64,000 nucleotides of DNA from Parabacteroides faecis (GTDB taxonomy: Bacteria > Bacteroidota > Bacteroidia > Bacteroidales > Tannerellaceae), in NCBI RefSeq assembly GCF_014647375.1, contig NZ_BMPB01000004.1:372001-436000 (forward strand). The letters run 5' to 3'. Made by a program: the position numbers and the translations under genes. Under the pieces are notes generated by a model. The model saw only the letters and a list, made by a program, of their open reading frames with translations, searched no databases and had not been told where the DNA came from. Positions 8,120 through 39,235 of this stretch are shown here, one piece after another (within the stretch, counting starts at the first letter, position 1; the number at the start of each line of letters is the position of its first letter).

Positions 8120-8179
8120 ATGATGAACAATGTATTACATATTATTCTCGTGGTGGTCCTTCTAGTCATTAGTAGGTAA
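8120..8179 (+). CDS. ilv leader peptide (branched-chain amino acid control codons)
   Basis: A 19-codon ORF reads MMNNVLHIILVVVLLVISR and stops at TAA 8177-8179. Twelve of the 19 residues are branched-chain: five Val, four Leu and three Ile, mostly in one run (8132-8170). It lies between a good promoter and an intrinsic terminator upstream of ilvD. Ribosome stalling on these codons when Val, Leu or Ile is scarce would control the downstream terminator. The peptide itself probably has no function beyond being translated. Confidence 0.88.
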   Translation: MMNNVLHIILVVVLLVISR

Positions 8180-8258
8180 GGAGAAAGGTGTGTAAGAAGT
8201 TGTGAAGTCGTAAAAGATATTTCTTAAGCCTTTCTCCATATAGAGAAGGGCTTTTTTT
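8180..8258 (+). promoter_or_regulatory. ilv transcription attenuator (antiterminator plus terminator)
   Basis: The terminator stem pairs 8226-8236 with 8243-8253 (11 bp, one G-U) and is followed by a T-run to 8258. GGAGAAAGG at 8180-8188, directly after the leader stop codon, is a perfect 9-nt complement of 8229-8237, the 5' arm of that terminator. A ribosome that reaches the stop codon would mask 8180-8188 and let the terminator form; one stalled on the Val/Leu/Ile codons would leave it free to act as antiterminator. Confidence 0.85.
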
Positions 8259-30762: not shown

Positions 30763-32184
30763 ATGGAAAAAAGAAAAACAAAAGTCGGCCTTGTCGGGCT
30801 GGGCCTGGATACGTATTGGCCACAATTTGAGGGGTTGTATGCGCGCCTTTGCGGGTACCAGGATTGGATTGCATCGAAAATGTCCCGTCCGGATACGGAA
30901 GTCATTAATGCCGGGATTGCCGATAATCCGGTTAAAGCGGTGGATGTGGCAGAAGATTTAAAGAAAGAAGATATTAGTATTTTGTTTGTGTTTATCTCCA
31001 CTTATGCGTTGTCATCGACTGTCTTACCGCTTGCCCAACGCGTAAAAGTACCTGTTATCCTGTTGAATATTCAGCCGGCCGCAGCCATCGACTATGACTA
31101 TATAAATAATCTGGGTGACAGAGGAAAAATGACAGGGGAGTGGCTGGCACATTGCCAGGCTTGTTCCGTGCCCGAGTTTGCCAGCGTATTCAACCGTTCC
31201 GGCATCCCGTATGAAATTGTGAGCGGCTATCTGCAGGAAGAGTATGTGTGGAAACAGATTAATAACTGGATCGATGCTGTCCGTGTGGTGAATGGCATGA
31301 AGAATAACCGTATGGGAATTCTGGGCCATTATTACTGTGGCATGTTGGACGTATATACCGATTTGACACAGCAGTCGTCTGTTTTCGGGACGCATGTGGA
31401 AATCGTGGAAATGTGTGAACTGAAGGCTTATCGCGACAATGTCACGGAGGAAGATGTAAAGGATAAACTGGATGAATTCAATGCCTGTTTTGATATCGAC
31501 GGCCAGTGTGAACCTTATGAACTGGATCGGGCAGCCCGTACTTCGATCGCGCTGGACCGTTTGATCGATGCTCATGACCTGGGATCGATGGCTTATTATT
31601 ATGAAGGGTATGCAGGCAATGAATACGAAAATATAGTAACATCCGTTATCGCCGGTAATACCCTGCTGACAGGACGGAATATACCGATTGCCGGCGAATG
31701 TGAAGTGAAGAATGTCCAGGCAATGAAGATCATGTCTTTGCTGGGAGTAGGCGGCTCTTTTTCTGAATTTTATGCACTTGATTTTAACGATGATATCGTT
31801 ATGCTGGGACATGATGGCCCCGCCCATTTCGCGATATCCGAAGGAAAAGTCCGTTTGGTTCCGCTGCCGGTCTATCATGGCAAACCGGGTAAAGGACTTT
31901 CTATTCAGATGACGGTAAAACATGGTCCGGTAACCCTGTTGTCGGTCTGCGAAGGGAAAGACGGTATCTTCCTGCTGGCGGCAGAAGGAGAATCAGTAGA
32001 AGGCCCGACGCTGAAGATCGGTAATACGAACAGCCGTTACCGTTTTACCTGCGGCGCCCGCGCATTTATCGATAACTGGAGCAAAGCAGGACCTTCCCAT
32101 CACTGTGCGATAGGTATTGGCCATCAGATAGATAAACTGGAAAAAATTGCATTCCTGCTGGGAATACCGATTGTTAAGGTTTGA
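30763..32184 (+). CDS. L-fucose/L-arabinose isomerase family protein
   Basis: Cytoplasmic protein of 473 residues with the fold of L-arabinose/L-fucose isomerases. N-terminal Rossmann-like part: KVGLVGLGLDTYWPQFEGLY and ISILFVFISTYALSSTVLPL; C-terminal part: ITGDN-like region TSVIAGNTLLTGRNIPIAGE, an acidic SFSEFYALDFNDDIVMLGHD loop that supplies metal and substrate ligands in the family, and HHCAIGIGHQIDKLEKIAFL. These enzymes interconvert aldoses and ketoses with a divalent metal. It lies 14 bp after the GH106-like gene, which fits processing of the released sugar, but whether it acts on rhamnose, fucose, arabinose or a derivative cannot be read from the sequence. Confidence 0.8.
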   Translation: MEKRKTKVGLVGLGLDTYWPQFEGLYARLCGYQDWIASKMSRPDTEVINAGIADNPVKAVDVAEDLKKEDISILFVFISTYALSSTVLPLAQRVKVPVILLNIQPAAAIDYDYINNLGDRGKMTGEWLAHCQACSVPEFASVFNRSGIPYEIVSGYLQEEYVWKQINNWIDAVRVVNGMKNNRMGILGHYYCGMLDVYTDLTQQSSVFGTHVEIVEMCELKAYRDNVTEEDVKDKLDEFNACFDIDGQCEPYELDRAARTSIALDRLIDAHDLGSMAYYYEGYAGNEYENIVTSVIAGNTLLTGRNIPIAGECEVKNVQAMKIMSLLGVGGSFSEFYALDFNDDIVMLGHDGPAHFAISEGKVRLVPLPVYHGKPGKGLSIQMTVKHGPVTLLSVCEGKDGIFLLAAEGESVEGPTLKIGNTNSRYRFTCGARAFIDNWSKAGPSHHCAIGIGHQIDKLEKIAFLLGIPIVKV

Positions 32185-32291: not shown

Positions 32292-32322
32292 TTTGGTGGT
32301 TTGGAAAAAGGCTGTATCTTTG
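32292..32322 (+). promoter_or_regulatory. Promoter of the leu operon
   Basis: TTTG (32292-32295) and TATCTTTG (32315-32322) are separated by 19 nt, the same spacing as at the ilv promoter. Both -7 boxes are followed by CAGCGT. Confidence 0.75.
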
Positions 32323-32344: not shown

Positions 32345-32419
32345 ATGAAACAGAACATAGCAAATAGTCTCATTATTTCTCTAAACATTATTCTACTCTG
32401 GGAACGGGATAGGAAGTGA
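32345..32419 (+). CDS. leu leader peptide (Leu and Ile control codons)
   Basis: A 24-codon ORF starts MKQNIANSLIISLN and continues IILLWERDRK before TGA 32417-32419. It holds four Leu codons (CTC, CTA, CTA, CTC) and five Ile codons (ATA and four ATT) but no Val. The pair of Leu codons at 32393-32398 lies 13 nt before the antiterminator segment, a suitable distance for a stalled ribosome to leave that segment exposed. Confidence 0.85.
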   Translation: MKQNIANSLIISLNIILLWERDRK

Positions 32420-32493
32420 GACTGTACGTGCTTTTCTGATGCATGAAGATATTAAAGAGCCTTTCTCACTTCCTGGTGAGAGAGGCTTTTTTT
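32411..32493 (+). promoter_or_regulatory. leu transcription attenuator (antiterminator plus terminator)
   Basis: The terminator pairs 32458-32469 with 32476-32487 (12 bp, one G-U), loop TTCCTG, then a T-run to 32493. AGGAAGTGAGA at 32411-32421, which contains the leader stop codon, is a perfect 11-nt complement of 32464-32474 in the terminator's 5' arm and loop. The arrangement is the same as in the ilv attenuator. Confidence 0.87.
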
Positions 32494-32537: not shown

Positions 32538-34034
32538 ATGTCAGACAGATTATTTATTTTCGACACCACGTTACGTGACGGTGAGCAAGTGCCGGGTTGC
32601 CAGTTAAACAGTATTGAAAAGATTCAGGTTGCCAGAGCACTCGAGGAGCTGGGTGTGGATGTGATTGAAGCAGGATTCCCTGTGTCGAGTCCGGGCGATT
32701 TCAATAGTGTGGTTGAGATATCCAAAGCCGTTACATGGCCTACTATCTGTGCGTTGACCCGTGCTGTCGAGAAAGATATCGATGTTGCCGCCGAAGCATT
32801 GAAGTTCGCTAAACGCGGACGTATCCATACCGGTATCGGTACTTCGGATTATCATATCCGTTATAAATTCAATTCCAATCAGGAGGAGATTCTGGAACGT
32901 GCCATCGCTGCTACGAAATATGCGAAGAGATATGTTGAAGATATTGAATTTTACTGTGAAGATGCCGGGCGTACGGACAATGCTTATCTGGCACGTGTCG
33001 TCGAGGCGGTGATCAAAGCGGGTGCTACCGTTGTGAATATCCCTGATACGACCGGTTATTGCCTGCCGGACGAATATGGAGCAAAGATCAAATATCTGAT
33101 GGAACACGTAGACGGCATACAGAATGCAATTATCTCTACACACTGCCATAACGACCTGGGTATGGCGACTGCCAATACCGTACAGGGTGTCCTGAACGGG
33201 GCACGCCAGGTGGAAGTAACTATCAACGGTATCGGCGAACGTGCCGGTAACACTTCACTGGAAGAAGTCGCCATGATCTTCCGCAGCCATAAAGAGCGCG
33301 GCATTGAAACCAATATCAATACTACGAAGATCTACGGTATCAGCCGTATGGTTTCCAGCCTGATGAATATGCCGATCCAGCCCAACAAGGCGATCGTCGG
33401 ACGTAATGCCTTCGCTCACTCTTCCGGTATCCACCAGGACGGCGTTTTGAAGAACCGTGAAAGCTATGAGATCATCGACCCGAAAGATGTGGGTATCGAC
33501 GATAATGCCATCGTGTTGACTGCCCGTAGCGGACGTGCAGCCCTGAAACATCGTCTGAGTGTGTTAGGGGTGGAACTGAGCCAGGAAAAACTGGATAAGG
33601 TATATGAAGAATTCCTGAAACTGGCTGACCGCAAGAAAGATATCAACGATGACGATGTGTTGATGCTGGCAGGAAAAGACCGCACAGCCATGCACCGTAT
33701 CAAGTTGGATTATCTGCAGGTGACATCGGGTGTCGGTTTACAGTCTGTAGCCAGTGTATGTCTGGATATCGCAGGCGAAAAATTTGAAGCTGCTGCTTCC
33801 GGTAACGGTCCGGTAGACGCTGCCATCAAAGCGGTTAAATCGATCATCCATCGTACGATGACTATCCAGGAATTTCTCATTCAGGCGATTAATAAGGGTA
33901 GCGACGATATGGGTAAGGTACATATGCAGGTGGAATACGATGGAAACAACTACTACGGCTTTGCCGCCAATACCGATATTATTGCCGCTTCTGTAGAAGC
34001 CTTTATCGACGCAATCAATAAGTTCGTAAAATAA
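32538..34034 (+). CDS. leuA: 2-isopropylmalate synthase
   Basis: Condenses acetyl-CoA with 2-oxoisovalerate, the committed step to leucine. The 498 residues comprise a TIM-barrel catalytic domain opening with [16 protein letters not shown], the metal-binding HxH in [19 protein letters not shown], the [15 protein letters not shown] segment and the [19 protein letters not shown] linker, and a C-terminal LeuA dimer/allosteric domain ([20 protein letters not shown]) for leucine feedback. First structural gene after the leu attenuator. It is distinct from the second family member at 36076, which lacks the leucine-type active-site sequence. Confidence 0.96.
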
Positions 34035-34052
34035 CATAATACATAATTAGCA

Positions 34053-35450
34053 ATGAGCAAGACATTATTTGAGAAGATTTGGGAAAAACATGTGGTAGAC
34101 ACACTGCCCGACGGAACGATCCAGTTTTACATCGACCGTCTGTTCTGCCATGAAGTAACCAGTCCGCAGGCATTTGCGGGGTTACGTGCCCGTGGCCTGA
34201 AGCCGTTCCGTCCGGAACAGATCACTTGTATGCCGGACCATAATATTCCGACATTGCATCAGGAAAAACCCATCGAAGACCCGGTTTCCAAGAACCAGGT
34301 GGACACGTTGGAAAAGAATGCGAAAGATTTCAGCCTGACTTATTACGGTTTGCAGCACCCGAAAAACGGGATTATCCATGTGGTAGGACCGGAAACGGGC
34401 TTGACCCAACCGGGCATGACGATCGTTTGCGGCGACTCCCATACTTCTACCCACGGCGCTATGGGCGCTATCGCTTTCGGTATCGGTACCAGCGAGGTGG
34501 AAATGACATTAGCTACCCAATGTATTATGCAGCGTAAGCCGAAGACGATGCGTATTACTATCGACGGTAAGCGTAAGCCGGGTGTGACGGCAAAGGACTT
34601 TGCTCTCTATATTATCAGTAAAATGACTACCGGAGGTGCTACCGGTTATTTCGTAGAGTATGCCGGCGAAGCGATCCGTAATACGACGATGGAAGAACGC
34701 CTTACCATCTGTAACCTGTCCATCGAAATGGGTGCCCGCGGTGGTATGATCGCTCCGGACCAGGTCACTTTCGATTATCTGAAAGACCGTGAATTTGCTC
34801 CCCGTGGCGAGGCTTGGGAAAAGAAACTGGCTGAATGGCGTGAGTTATACAGCGATCCGGATGCATCTTTCGATAAGGAGATCGTATTCCATGCGGAAGA
34901 TATCGACCCGATGGTGACTTACGGAACCAACCCTGGTATGGGCATGGGCATCCGCGAAAGCATTCCGGCTATGGAAAGCGTAGATGAAGCCGGTCGTATC
35001 TCTTATAAAAAATCGCTCGACTATATGGGGTTCACTGCCGGTGAACCGATCATGGGCAAGAAAATCGATTACGTCTTCCTGGGAAGTTGTACGAATGGCC
35101 GTATCGAGGATTTCCGCGCTTTCGCCTCTTTGGTGAAAGGAAAGAAGAAAGCCGACGATGTGATCGTATGGCTGGTGCCGGGAAGTTGGCAGGTAGAACG
35201 CCAGATCCGTGCGGAAGGTATCGATAAAGTCCTGACGGAAGCCGGTTTTGAATTGCGTCAGCCGGGTTGTTCGGCTTGTCTGGCAATGAATGAAGACAAG
35301 GTCCCGGCAGGTAAATATGCCGTATCTACTTCCAACCGTAACTTCGAAGGACGTCAGGGGCCCGGTGCACGTACGATCCTGGCCGGTCCGTTGGTGGCTG
35401 CGGCTGCAGCGGTAACGGGAAAGATTACCGATCCGAGAGATTTAATGTAA
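34053..35450 (+). CDS. leuC: 3-isopropylmalate dehydratase large subunit
   Basis: Large subunit of the [4Fe-4S] isomerase that converts 2- to 3-isopropylmalate; the same enzyme class acts on citramalate. Full length at 465 residues. Aconitase-family motifs: [20 protein letters not shown], the cluster cysteines in [14 protein letters not shown] and [13 protein letters not shown], and [19 protein letters not shown]. It follows leuA by 18 bp and precedes its small subunit by 33 bp. It could serve both LeuA and the citramalate-synthase-like enzyme of this operon. Confidence 0.97.
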
Positions 35451-35483: not shown

Positions 35484-36074
35484 ATGAAAGAAAAATTCAC
35501 GATAGTAACATCCACCTGTGTACCTCTTCCTCTGGAAAATGTAGACACAGACCAGATCATCCCGGCCCGCTTTCTGAAAGCGACCACACGCGAGGGCTTC
35601 GGCGATAATCTTTTCCGCGATTGGCGTTATGACAAGGCGGGCAACCCTAATCCGGACTTTGTGCTGAATCAGAATACATATAAAGGCGAGATCCTGGTAG
35701 CCGGAAAGAACTTCGGTAGCGGTTCGAGCCGTGAACATGCGGCCTGGGCGATTGCCGGATACGGATTCCGTGTCGTTGTCAGCAGTTTCTTCGCTGACAT
35801 CTTCAAGAACAACTCCATGAACAACGGTCTTGTTCCGGTTGTTGTTTCTCCGGAGTTCCTGGCTGAGATATTCGCATCCGTAGAAGCTGATCCGAAAGCG
35901 ACATTGACGGTCGATCTGCCTGCCCAGACAATCACCAACAACGCAACCGGAAAAACTGAACCTTTCGATATCAATGCCTATAAGAAAGATTGCCTGGTAA
36001 ACGGTCTGGACGATATCGACTATCTACTGGCGAATAAGTCTAAAATAGAAGCGTACGAAGCAAACAGAAAGTAA
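35484..36074 (+). CDS. leuD: 3-isopropylmalate dehydratase small subunit
   Basis: Small swivel-domain subunit (196 residues) completing the LeuCD isomerase. Family features: [19 protein letters not shown] near the start, the substrate-binding loop [20 protein letters not shown], and [19 protein letters not shown]. The stop codon is followed by a single base before the next ATG, so leuD and the 36076 gene are almost certainly translationally coupled. Confidence 0.97.
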
Positions 36075-36075
36075 G

Positions 36076-37587
36076 ATGGTAGAAATAATGGATACAACCC
36101 TTCGGGACGGGGAACAAACATCGGGTGTCTCTTTTGCGGCTCACGAAAAGCTCAATATAGCGCAAGTGCTGTTGAGCGATCTGGGAGTAAACCGCGTAGA
36201 GATCGCCTCTGCTCGCGTATCGGACGGAGAGTTCGAAGCCGTGAAGCGTGTGGCTGCCTGGGCCGAACGTACCGGTAATCTGCATAAGCTCGAAGTGCTC
36301 GGCTTTGTAGATGGCGACGCCTCGCTCAACTGGATCGAATCGGCCGGTTGCCGCGTGGTAAACCTTCTCTGTAAAGGTTCGTATAAACACGTGACCGAAC
36401 AACTCCGCAAATTGCCTGAACAGCATATTGCAGATATCTGTTCTGTTGTATCGCTGGCTACCGAAAAAGGTATTGAAGTAAATATTTATCTGGAAGACTG
36501 GTCGAACGGGATCAAGAACTCCCCCGACTATGTTTTCCAGCTGGTCGATGCGTTGAAAGATCTTCCGATCCGCCGTTTCATGCTTCCCGATACGCTGGGA
36601 ATACTGAATCCGGGCAACACATACGAATTTTGCAAGAAGATGATCGAACGTTATCCCGACCTGCATTTCGATTTCCATGCCCATAACGATTACGACCTGG
36701 CGGTAGCCAACGTCTATTCGGCCGTGCGGGCAGGCGTACACGGTGTCCATACTACGATAAACGGTCTGGGCGAACGTGCCGGAAATGCACCGCTCAGCAG
36801 TGTGATTGCGGTGATCAAAGACCATCTGGGTGAAGAGACCTCTGTCCGCGAAGAAAAGATCAATGCGGCAAGTCGCCTGGTCGAAACCTACTCGGGTATT
36901 CATATCGCGCCGAACCGCCCCATCATCGGTGAGCATGTCTTTACGCAATGTGCCGGTGTGCATGCCGACGGCGACAGCAAAAATAATCTGTATTGCAACG
37001 ACCTGATCCCCGAACGTTTCGGCCGTGTCCGTGAATATGCCCTGGGCAAAACGTCCGGTAAGGCAAATATCCGCATGAACCTCGAATCGCTGGGTATCGA
37101 TGTGGATGACGAATCCATGCGTAAGATCACCGAGCGCATCATCGAACTGGGAGACAAAAAAGAAATGGTAACGACCGAGGACCTGCCCTATATCATCAGT
37201 GATGTCCTTCACCATGATACAATGGCAGATCAACGTATCCGTATATTAAATTATTCCTTATCTTTGGCACAGGGACTGAGGCCCGTAGCTACGCTGAAAA
37301 TAGAGATCGACGGAGAAGCTTACGAAGAATCGGCTTCCGGTGACGGTCAGTACGACGCTTTTGTGCGTGCCCTCCGCAGGATCTATTCAGACCTCGGCCG
37401 TCCGTTCCCGATGTTGACGAACTATTCCGTATCCATTCCCCCCGGAGGTCGTACCGACGCTTTCGTTCAGACGATCATCAGCTGGAATTATGCCGGAGTA
37501 GATTTCAAGACCCGTGGCCTCGATGCCGACCAGACAGAAGCCGCTATCAAGGCAACGCTGAAGATGCTGAATAAGATCGAACAATAA
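36076..37587 (+). CDS. cimA: Citramalate synthase-type enzyme of the 2-isopropylmalate synthase family
   Basis: Predicted to condense acetyl-CoA with pyruvate to (R)-citramalate, which LeuCD and LeuB turn into 2-oxobutyrate for isoleucine. The 503 residues have the catalytic barrel ([19 protein letters not shown]; metal ligands Asp11, His201, His203) and a C-terminal LeuA-type regulatory domain (about 385-500). From memory of Leptospira CimA, the residues of its pyruvate pocket and active site (Arg16, Leu81, Leu104, Tyr144, Glu146, His302, Asp304, Asn310, Leu311, Tyr312) all have identical counterparts here six positions lower (Arg10, Leu75, Leu98, Tyr138, Glu140, His296, Asp298, Asn304, Leu305, Tyr306). 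Generic annotation would call this a second LeuA. Coupled to leuD by a 1-nt gap. Confidence 0.83.
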   Translation: MVEIMDTTLRDGEQTSGVSFAAHEKLNIAQVLLSDLGVNRVEIASARVSDGEFEAVKRVAAWAERTGNLHKLEVLGFVDGDASLNWIESAGCRVVNLLCKGSYKHVTEQLRKLPEQHIADICSVVSLATEKGIEVNIYLEDWSNGIKNSPDYVFQLVDALKDLPIRRFMLPDTLGILNPGNTYEFCKKMIERYPDLHFDFHAHNDYDLAVANVYSAVRAGVHGVHTTINGLGERAGNAPLSSVIAVIKDHLGEETSVREEKINAASRLVETYSGIHIAPNRPIIGEHVFTQCAGVHADGDSKNNLYCNDLIPERFGRVREYALGKTSGKANIRMNLESLGIDVDDESMRKITERIIELGDKKEMVTTEDLPYIISDVLHHDTMADQRIRILNYSLSLAQGLRPVATLKIEIDGEAYEESASGDGQYDAFVRALRRIYSDLGRPFPMLTNYSVSIPPGGRTDAFVQTIISWNYAGVDFKTRGLDADQTEAAIKATLKMLNKIEQ

Positions 37588-37591
37588 ACTA

Positions 37592-37681
37592 GTTGACAAA
37601 TGACAGTTGACAGATGAGCTTCGCGCTCGGTAAAACAAATTGTCTGAAAGCCGAGATAACTGTCCACTGTCACTTGTCAAC
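37592..37681. repeat. Inverted repeat between cimA and mgsA
   Basis: GTTGACAAATGACAGTTGAC (from 37592, arm to 37613) and its inverted copy (37660-37681, 20 of 22 positions complementary) flank a loop that contains a second stem, CTCGG/CCGAG (37626-37630 with 37651-37655). The left arm itself contains the direct repeat GTTGACA. It may be a mobile intergenic repeat or an mRNA-processing hairpin. Confidence 0.7.
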
Positions 37682-37703
37682 TGTCAACTTAAAAAGTATA
37701 GTT

Positions 37704-38150
37704 ATGAACAAAAGATTGACCATTGCGCTGGTAGCGCACGATAACCGTAAAGCAGACATGGTAGAATGGGCCGTGCACAATGCAGAATTCCTTTCCCATC
37801 ACCATTTGGTATGTACCGGAACCACCGGAGGGCTTATACGCAGTGCCTTCGACGAGAAGGGAGTAGGTGCGGAAATTACTTGTATGCATTCCGGCCCGTT
37901 AGGCGGAGATGCCGAGATTGCAGCCATGGTAGTACGTAAAGAGGTGGATCTGGCGATCTTTTTGATCGACGACCTGAATCCGCAACCTCATGAAGCCGAC
38001 ATTCAGATGTTGCTTCGCCAGTGTCGTGTTCATAACGTGCCTATCGCTTGTAACCGTTACAGTGCCGACCTGATGATTACGAGCACCCTGTGGGATGATG
38101 ACAGTTATGTTCCTACAGAACCCAAATATGTGCTATTTAAAAGAGACTAA
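37704..38150 (+). CDS. mgsA: Methylglyoxal synthase
   Basis: Cytoplasmic enzyme turning dihydroxyacetone phosphate into methylglyoxal and phosphate, an overflow route that relieves triose-phosphate build-up. The 148 residues are full length for the family. Motifs: LTIALVAHDNRKADMVEW at the start, the phosphate-binding GTTGGLI, HSGPLGGDAEIAAM with the catalytic Asp, and DDLNPQPHEADIQMLLRQCR with the catalytic His. ATG 37704 matches the family start; an in-frame ATG at 37614 lies inside the inverted repeat. Its place between cimA and leuB, flanked upstream by a hairpin, is unexpected; no metabolic tie to leucine is obvious. Confidence 0.95.
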   Translation: MNKRLTIALVAHDNRKADMVEWAVHNAEFLSHHHLVCTGTTGGLIRSAFDEKGVGAEITCMHSGPLGGDAEIAAMVVRKEVDLAIFLIDDLNPQPHEADIQMLLRQCRVHNVPIACNRYSADLMITSTLWDDDSYVPTEPKYVLFKRD

Positions 38151-38164
38151 AATAACAAACTGAA

Positions 38165-39235
38165 ATGAAATTGAATATTGCAGTCCTTCCCGGTGACGGT
38201 ATCGGTCCCGAGATTGTAGAACAAGGCATGAAAGCCGTAAAAGCTATATGTGAGAAATACGGCCATGAACTAAGTTACAAACACGCTTTGGTGGGAGCCG
38301 TTGCCATCGACGAGACAGGTAATCCGTATCCGGACGAAACGCACGAACTGTGTATGCAGAGCGATGCCGTTTATTTTGGTGCGATCGGTTCTCCGAAATA
38401 CGATAATAATCCGTCAGCGAAAGTCCGTCCCGAACAGGGGTTGCTGGGTATGCGCAAGAAGCTGGGGCTTTTTGCCAATATCCGTCCGGTAACTACTTTC
38501 CCGTCGTTGCTGCATAAGTCTCCGCTTCGTGCCGAACTGATCGAAGGGGCTGATTTCATGTGTATCCGCGAATTGACCGGAGGTATGTATTTCGGTCGTC
38601 CGCAGGGAAGAAGCGAAGACGGAAATACCGCTTACGATACGTGTGTTTATACCCGCGAAGAGATCGAACGTATTGTCCGCCTGGCTTATCAGTACGCACA
38701 GAAACGTCGTAAGAAAGTAACGGTTGTCGATAAGGCGAACGTGCTGGCAACTTCCCGTCTGTGGCGTCAGGTAGCACAGGAGATAGAAAAGGAATATCCG
38801 GATGTGGAAACTGAATACATGTTTGTCGACAACGCTGCTATGCGTCTGGTTCAGTGGCCGAAGAGTTTCGATGTGATGGTTACTGAAAACATGTTCGGTG
38901 ATATTCTGACCGATGAGGCGTCTGTGATCACTGGTTCACTGGGGATGCTTCCTTCTGCTTCCATTGGCGTACATACTTCCGTATTCGAACCGATCCACGG
39001 TTCTTATCCGCAGGCAGCCGGAAAGAATATTGCCAATCCGCTGGCTACTATCCTGAGTGCCGCCCTGATGTTTGAATATGCTTTCAACCTGATGGAAGAA
39101 GGTGCCCTGATCCGTGAAGCTGTTACTGCCTCGATGGATGCCAATGTCGTAACAGAGGATATTGCTGAAAACGGCAAGGCTTACAAGACCAGCGAGGTAG
39201 GGGATTGGATTGCTGATTATATTGCAAAGAAGTAA
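38165..39235 (+). CDS. leuB: 3-isopropylmalate dehydrogenase
   Basis: NAD-dependent oxidative decarboxylation of 3-isopropylmalate to the precursor of leucine; related enzymes also act on 3-methylmalate in the citramalate route. The 356 residues are full length: [31 protein letters not shown], the arginine-rich RPVTTFPSL, the Lys-Asn-Val region [15 protein letters not shown], the Asp ligands in [20 protein letters not shown], and the NAD loop [20 protein letters not shown]. Last gene of the leu operon, 14 bp after mgsA; the dyad at 39352-39397 lies downstream. Confidence 0.97.

Follow-up and report, generated by a model that had tools for sequence, protein, structure and literature searches.

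The leader upstream of leuA in the 64,000-nt stretch of Parabacteroides faecis DNA that we analysed (hereafter, the window) is very probably a ribosome-mediated (leader-peptide) transcription attenuator of leuA-leuC-leuD-probable cimA-methylglyoxal synthase gene-leuB. We based this assignment on the parts of the leader, on three predicted folds, on the recurrence of the arrangement, on the covariation of the 1:2 and 3:4 pairings and on the way in which the leader codons go with the genes of the operon; leader translation, ribosome stalling and actual read-through are steps that we infer from the attenuator model. The original prediction, which had described this leader as one of two attenuators of the same geometry in the window and had proposed a general Bacteroidales design for amino acid operons, was right in its observation, and the results support most of its interpretation. 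Since attenuation in the phylum is already in print (PMC9723704), we filed the leu leader as a well-supported case of a known class.

Anatomy and predicted folding of the leu leader

All the features described here are on the forward strand. A promoter-like site of Bacteroidales type was read from the sequence at 32292-32322, with TTTG at 32292-32295 and TATCTTTG at 32315-32322 separated by the 19 nt that had been claimed; we take it to be the promoter from its agreement with the Bacteroidales promoter motif. Of 51 leu leaders, 31 had the full motif at most 100 nt from their ATG, and no such motif was found 200-300 nt upstream of the leaders where the upstream DNA reached that far.

The leader peptide ORF, MKQNIANSLIISLNIILLWERDRK, has 24 codons and extends from the ATG at 32345 to the stop codon at 32417-32419 (32345-32419; sequence, window scan and relatives). 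As in an attenuator, it carries a cluster of control codons for the operon product, and the cluster had been correctly recognised, but it does not consist of Leu codons alone, as there are four Leu codons (CTC, CTA, CTA, CTC) and five Ile codons. Segment 1, the core of a protector hairpin (32364-32374, with the extended stem starting from 32351; fold and covariation), has as its partner the region 32415-32425. Segment 2, the 5′ strand of the antiterminator, lies across the stop codon (32410-32421; scan, duplex test and fold). Precisely, AGGAAGTGAGA at 32411-32421 is the perfect complement of 32464-32474, as already noted, and in the RNA fold the 2:3 duplex extends to 12 bp, 32410-32421 with 32464-32475, including one G-U pair. 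Segment 3, the partner of segment 2 (32464-32475; fold), is within the 5′ arm and the loop of the intrinsic terminator 3:4 (32454-32491; scan, fold and covariation), which is followed by a T run and is located between the leader ORF and the first structural gene, where an attenuator has it. The terminator and its T run had been seen before, but in the RNA fold the stem is 17 bp long (32454-32470 with 32475-32491), the 12 bp reported for it being its G+C-rich core. Similarly, the fold proposed earlier had 2:3 and 3:4 but overlooked 1:2, the protector or pause hairpin of an attenuator, which is present by both fold and covariation and makes the leu leader a textbook four-segment design.

Downstream from the leader we found the leuA, leuC, leuD and leuB genes expected of a leu operon. 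The NCBIfam models matched above cut-off were TIGR00973 and NF002086 for leuA (2-isopropylmalate synthase, 32538-34034), TIGR00170 for leuC (34053-35450), TIGR00171 for leuD (35484-36074) and TIGR00169 for leuB (3-isopropylmalate dehydrogenase, 38165-39235). The fourth gene (36076-37587) is a probable cimA, encoding (R)-citramalate synthase, whose best NCBIfam match was NF042433 CimA with 647 bits, below the cut-off of 950. A methylglyoxal synthase gene (positions 37614-38150 of the window; NF003559 above cut-off, TIGR00160 below) lies between the probable cimA and leuB. Judging only from gene order and spacing, leuA-leuC-leuD-probable cimA-methylglyoxal synthase gene-leuB would be one operon.

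We considered three states of the leader RNA. In the free leader, without a ribosome, the fold gave a long 1:2 hairpin that conceals segment 2 (-27.8 kcal/mol). With a ribosome on the last Leu codon (32396-32398), the front edge of which we assumed to be at about 32408 after E. coli footprints, 2:3 formed (-22.5 kcal/mol), and with a ribosome at the stop codon the terminator at 32454-32491 formed (-26.9 kcal/mol). By sequence and fold, the antiterminator is predicted to be exclusive with the terminator and to be placed so that the position of the ribosome would decide between them. When the whole stalled transcript was folded at equilibrium, the result was the terminator and not 2:3. Since the terminator outcompetes 2:3 at equilibrium even in the stalled state, the model needs co-transcriptional folding, with the order of synthesis deciding the outcome as in the classic model.

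According to this model, in an untranslated leader 1:2 would pair and the terminator 3:4 would form, and the operon would be off. If charged Leu- or Ile-tRNA were scarce, the ribosome would stall on the control codons and open segment 1, and segment 2 would be free during the stall because it starts 11-12 nt past the last Leu codon; 2:3 would then form before segment 4 is synthesised, and RNA polymerase would read through. If both Leu and Ile were ample, the ribosome would get to the stop codon and cover segment 2, and 3:4 would terminate transcription. The leader ribosome would sense leucine and probably isoleucine.

The leu operon attenuator of Salmonella and E. coli (Rfam family Leu_leader) likewise has a short leader peptide with Leu codons, including the rare CUA, and the pairings 1:2, 2:3 and 3:4 before leuA; the leader described here differs from it in having both Leu and Ile control codons, a probable cimA in the operon and no match in Rfam. 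In fact, Rfam over the whole window gave no family at gathering score (Leu_leader, T-box and all the others), and with the leu leader alone, at E up to 1, it gave only the unrelated PyrR and NrrF, both below gathering score. These searches bear on a second explanation, a riboswitch or T-box in which the terminator answers a small molecule or an uncharged tRNA directly and the ORF plays no part. The presence of a structured leader and a terminator would agree with this explanation, but the lack of a family at gathering score in the window is not in its favour, and neither is the match between leader residues and operon (the criterion for His-rich leaders fires on 24/26 his loci and on none of the other sets), a fit that a riboswitch would not need. 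We considered it very unlikely, and we retain the leader-peptide attenuator.

Recurrence and conservation of the arrangement

Both strands of the window were scanned for a terminator, an ATG ORF of 12-35 codons and a stop-proximal complementary strand of at least 8 bp. There were two matches, the leu leader (32345-32419) and the ilv leader (8120-8179), whereas the same scan on 40 dinucleotide-shuffled strands gave none; the geometry that had been said to occur twice in the window is indeed found before leu and ilv only. The ilv leader peptide ORF is MMNNVLHIILVVVLLVISR (8120-8179; sequence and window scan), and the region 8180-8253 (scan and fold) includes an antiterminator strand at 8180-8189, pairing with 8228-8237, and the terminator at 8226-8253.

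The closest of the named LeuA relatives listed were from Parabacteroides (P. massiliensis, 96%), from which we take the order to be Bacteroidales. LeuA was present in 144/295 genomes of the order, and the upstream DNA was taken from the 110 best-scoring loci. We found a Leu/Ile/Val-rich leader ORF with a terminator before leuA in 52 of these 110 loci, compared with 0 of 330 shuffles. Some of the 58 loci not called have a visible leader but no callable terminator, and others appear to have leuA close behind another gene. For the named leuA contigs, 44 of 77 loci were called (77 of 80 had enough upstream DNA), in a set that overlaps the 110-locus one, at least L412, L426, L432 and L440 being shared. 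As for ilvD, which was present in 73/158 genomes, a leader with a terminator was found in 46 of the 68 loci scanned, compared with 0 of 204 shuffles, so that the generality proposed for leu and ilv holds across the order. These counts have to be read with criteria that are not fully specific, since the Leu/Ile/Val criterion also fires on 6/26 his and 2/27 phe loci and the Trp criterion on 4/68 ilv loci, and with an ORF caller that picks a doubtful ORF in some loci (e.g. G120).

The recurrence also bears on the idea that the hairpin simply terminates the upstream gene, with a chance ORF in front of it. A 473-codon ORF on the same strand does end at 32184, but the promoter-like site and the leader ORF separate it from the hairpin, and the arrangement recurs before leuA in about half of the loci scanned in the order; we regarded this idea as scarcely credible, even less so than the riboswitch, and proceeded with the attenuator.

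We compared the pairing of each leader's own strands with that of strands from other species and of shuffled strands. The cross-species antiterminator test was strong for leu (median duplex -15.6 kcal/mol for own strands, -11.9 for other species and -9.2 for shuffled strands) and for ilv (-16.4, -11.4 and -8.5 kcal/mol, respectively), but only 26 of 52 leu leaders passed the 95% level of the shuffles. The corresponding medians for 1:2 were -19.1, -14.2 and -12.4 kcal/mol for leu and -20.6, -14.0 and -13.1 kcal/mol for ilv. For phe the antiterminator duplex gave -19.2 (own), -18.1 (cross) and -9.8 (shuffled), the first two being close because the species are closely related. The test was weak for his, with 1/24 leaders beyond 95% of the shuffles, and for trp, with 4/21; the trp strand over the stop codon seems, from the sequences, to pair with the loop and the 3′ arm of the terminator and not with the 5′ arm. 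Segments 2, 3 and 4 vary in concert between species, with CCTTTCTC, CCATTCTC, GCCGATT and CAGCCCTCC types.

Covariation was evaluated in an alignment of 20 sequences, i.e. the window and the 19 closer leaders out of 40 named leaders of suitable length. For 1:2, 14 of 20 pairs were altered on both sides, a score that none of 500 shuffles reached and that exceeds all six slid controls, although related sequences may exceed the shuffles of the counting tool without any structure; 26.6% of the cells were unpaired and the outer helix pairs in just 47.7%. Covariation of 3:4 was also supported (0/500 shuffles scored as high). For 2:3, 189/500 shuffles scored as high in the close relatives, in which this helix is too conserved to covary.

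The geometry was counted in the leaders with an ungapped strand score of at least 15 (leu 47/52, ilv 41/46, phe 23/24, his 22/24, trp 20/21). The median gap between the last control codon and the strand was 12 nt for leu (interquartile range 11-13, in 47 of 52 leaders), 10 for ilv, 11 for phe, 16.5 for his and 20 for trp. Overlap with the stop codon had been put forward as a design rule. The strand does overlap or abut the stop codon frequently in leu (32/47), ilv (32/41), his (19/22) and trp (15/20), but this is not general, as it does so in only 4/23 phe leaders; a position within -22 to +14 of the stop was found in 41/47 leu, 37/41 ilv, 23/23 phe, 22/22 his and 18/20 trp leaders. The 44 named leu leaders fall into two registers: in 28 of them the strand is at the stop or close to it, and in 16 it ends at least 12 nt before the end of the stop codon. 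The gap is 10-13 nt in 23/28 leaders of the first register and in 7/16 of the second, and it is 0-4 nt in 6/16 of the second, where most of these short gaps apparently arise from the counter taking a later Val, Ile or Leu as control codon; constancy of the gap in the second register is suggested, not proved. In most of the arrangements, the strand would stay accessible while the ribosome is stalled and would be masked once the ribosome has reached the stop.

Leucine and isoleucine codons and the cimA gene

The leu leaders contain hardly any Val codons, with a mean of 0.44 per leader against 4.09 per ilv leader, and at least three Val codons are found in 0/52 leu leaders against 37/46 ilv leaders. 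Enterobacterial ilv attenuators are similar in that a single leader reads several branched-chain amino acids, and different in that these are Ile, Val and Leu. The commonest Leu codon in the leu leaders is CTA (0.32 of 250). In 20 of the loci it makes up 0.03 of the Leu codons of the leuA genes themselves and 39/96 of those in the leaders. This use of CTA fits the theory that rare and sensitive codons serve attenuation (PMC1183508).

We then considered the position of cimA, taking as a match any hit with E up to 1e-90. Among the 110 loci, 82 had cimA on the same strand within 9 kb downstream from leuA, 14 had it on another contig and 1 had it far away, while no match was found for 13. In the leaders with terminator support and cimA in the operon (n=48) the ratio I/(I+L) had a median of 0.53 and a minimum of 0.33, whereas it was at most 0.20 in the leaders with cimA absent or far (n=5, three families), three of which (G144, G198, G021) were missed by the strict caller and added by hand; the comparison omits two leaders for which cimA is on another contig (ratios of 0.55 and 0.27), as well as the uncalled ORFs of the cimA-less genomes G009, G084, G110, G170 and G241. 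A wider comparison including these genomes (62 vs 9) gave medians of 0.50 and 0.16. Judging from these sequences, in which genomes without cimA are few, the Ile codons of the leu leaders go with a probable cimA in the operon.

In the citramalate pathway, LeuCD and LeuB can also serve isoleucine synthesis, and since the product of the fourth gene most resembles CimA, they probably do so here. A homologue of threonine ammonia-lyase is also encoded in the genome (its score exceeds the ilvA_1Cterm cut-off but not that of THD1), so isoleucine need not derive from citramalate alone. That second source of isoleucine would suit a leader that senses leucine only, with Ile codons that simply fit a short hydrophobic peptide. 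Leu-only leaders do exist where no cimA adjoins leuA (G144, G021), which makes leucine the constant signal, and two doubtful ORFs run against the trend, as they are not poor in Ile (G110 0.67, G084 0.40) although their genomes gave no cimA match. The difference in I/(I+L) between the two groups of leaders, three of the smaller group being the hand-added ones, argues against sensing of leucine only, as does the avoidance of Val, which is equally hydrophobic; we considered it rather unlikely.

We lean, with some reserve, towards the Bacteroidales leu leader as a two-amino-acid sensor in which the codons track the genes of the operon, reading Leu and Ile when cimA is in the leu operon and Leu alone otherwise, with classic four-segment attenuation then being a main control of the amino-acid operons of the phylum. 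If this is true, attenuation as a main control implies a tight coupling of transcription and translation in the phylum, where translation starts largely without Shine-Dalgarno pairing. The leu leader makes such coupling testable, and leader codons might allow pathway use, i.e. the citramalate route to isoleucine, to be predicted from sequence.

Two loci (L097 and L104, in G170 and G241) have long ORFs before leuA in which Ile codons are few and Leu codons form long runs at the end (LLLLLLSNLLLL); these genomes have no cimA match, and no strong terminator was called before leuA.

Leaders before other amino-acid genes

We searched 30 genomes, 19 of them being the window's genome and its genus, for leaders before hisG, trp (with TrpE as anchor) and pheA. 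In this set, which is mostly of one genus, a leader with a terminator was found in 24/26 hisG loci (0/26 shuffles), 21/26 trp loci (1/26 shuffles) and 24/27 pheA loci (0/27 shuffles). In the window's own genome the leaders are MRRKVSHHHHHHYNGQ before hisG, MRTFIVNTFWWWRSLLLKRS before trp and MNRFSFTYFFYYFYFSKVKAGIYM before pheA. The His criterion, which fires on those 24 his loci, fired on 0/110 leu, 0/68 ilv, 0/26 trp and 0/27 phe loci, and the Trp and Phe/Tyr criteria on 0-4 loci per foreign set. Outside the order, hisG was found in 79/90 genomes of the phylum, and the arrangement was present in 17 of the 30 loci scanned; in 10 of the remaining 13 there is an ORF containing a small His cluster, with no terminator called, and some of these ORFs may have arisen by chance. 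The extension to other operons that had been suggested is thus seen for his, trp and phe, and for his also beyond the order, but not for thrA, with no attenuator in the approximately 260-310 nt upstream in any of the 20 loci scanned. Together with the leu and ilv leaders, these results argue, from anatomy and comparison, for classic attenuation as a common feature upstream of amino-acid operons in Bacteroidales.

In Flavobacterium psychrophilum, amino-acid operons have been reported to show strong signs of leader-peptide attenuation, and structured 5′ elements have been described upstream of several genes, including pheA and hisG; this species belongs to a different order, and the leu anatomy is not in the main-text parts compared (PMC9723704). 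Short ORFs in 5′ UTRs of B. thetaiotaomicron have been likened to leader peptides (PMC7366714), and in 2010 such peptides were, according to another paper, known only in Proteobacteria and Actinobacteria before its own Firmicutes case (PMC2965389). Among the titles and abstract beginnings listed from the openly accessible literature we found neither a Bacteroidales leu attenuator nor a cimA-linked Leu and Ile leader. A comparative attenuator survey by Vitreschak in 2004 is said to mention Bacteroidetes/Chlorobi, and one by Lopatovskaya in 2010 reportedly predicted attenuators of the same class in many bacteria.

Some further observations regard single genes. Five hisG loci (L310, L311, L313, L330, L332) have short ORFs of another type, e.g. 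VHHAHHGHH or VHHLHQGHHH, without a called terminator. For the Tyr- and Trp-tRNA synthetase genes, 25 of 26 loci scanned in 13 genomes gave one weak and unconvincing attenuator match, which we rejected. The pheA leaders (L213 and relatives) are rich in both Phe and Tyr codons, as in MNRFSFTYFFYYFYFSKVKAGIYM, and 0.93 of their 127 Phe codons are TTT; their composition suggests that the pheA leader would sense both aromatic amino acids jointly.

Upstream of thrA (L248-L267), 16/20 loci share a short, conserved ORF that carries TPWGV or TPHGV close to the end, e.g. MIAGIAYYTWALMTPWGVRI; the locus of the window's genome is L248, on the reverse strand. A search of four of these loci gave no Rfam match for the ORF. 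The core of this ORF, ACCCCTTGGGGGGTT (variant ACCCCTCACGGGGTG), would fold into a hairpin, and the ORF is possibly a different kind of thr leader.
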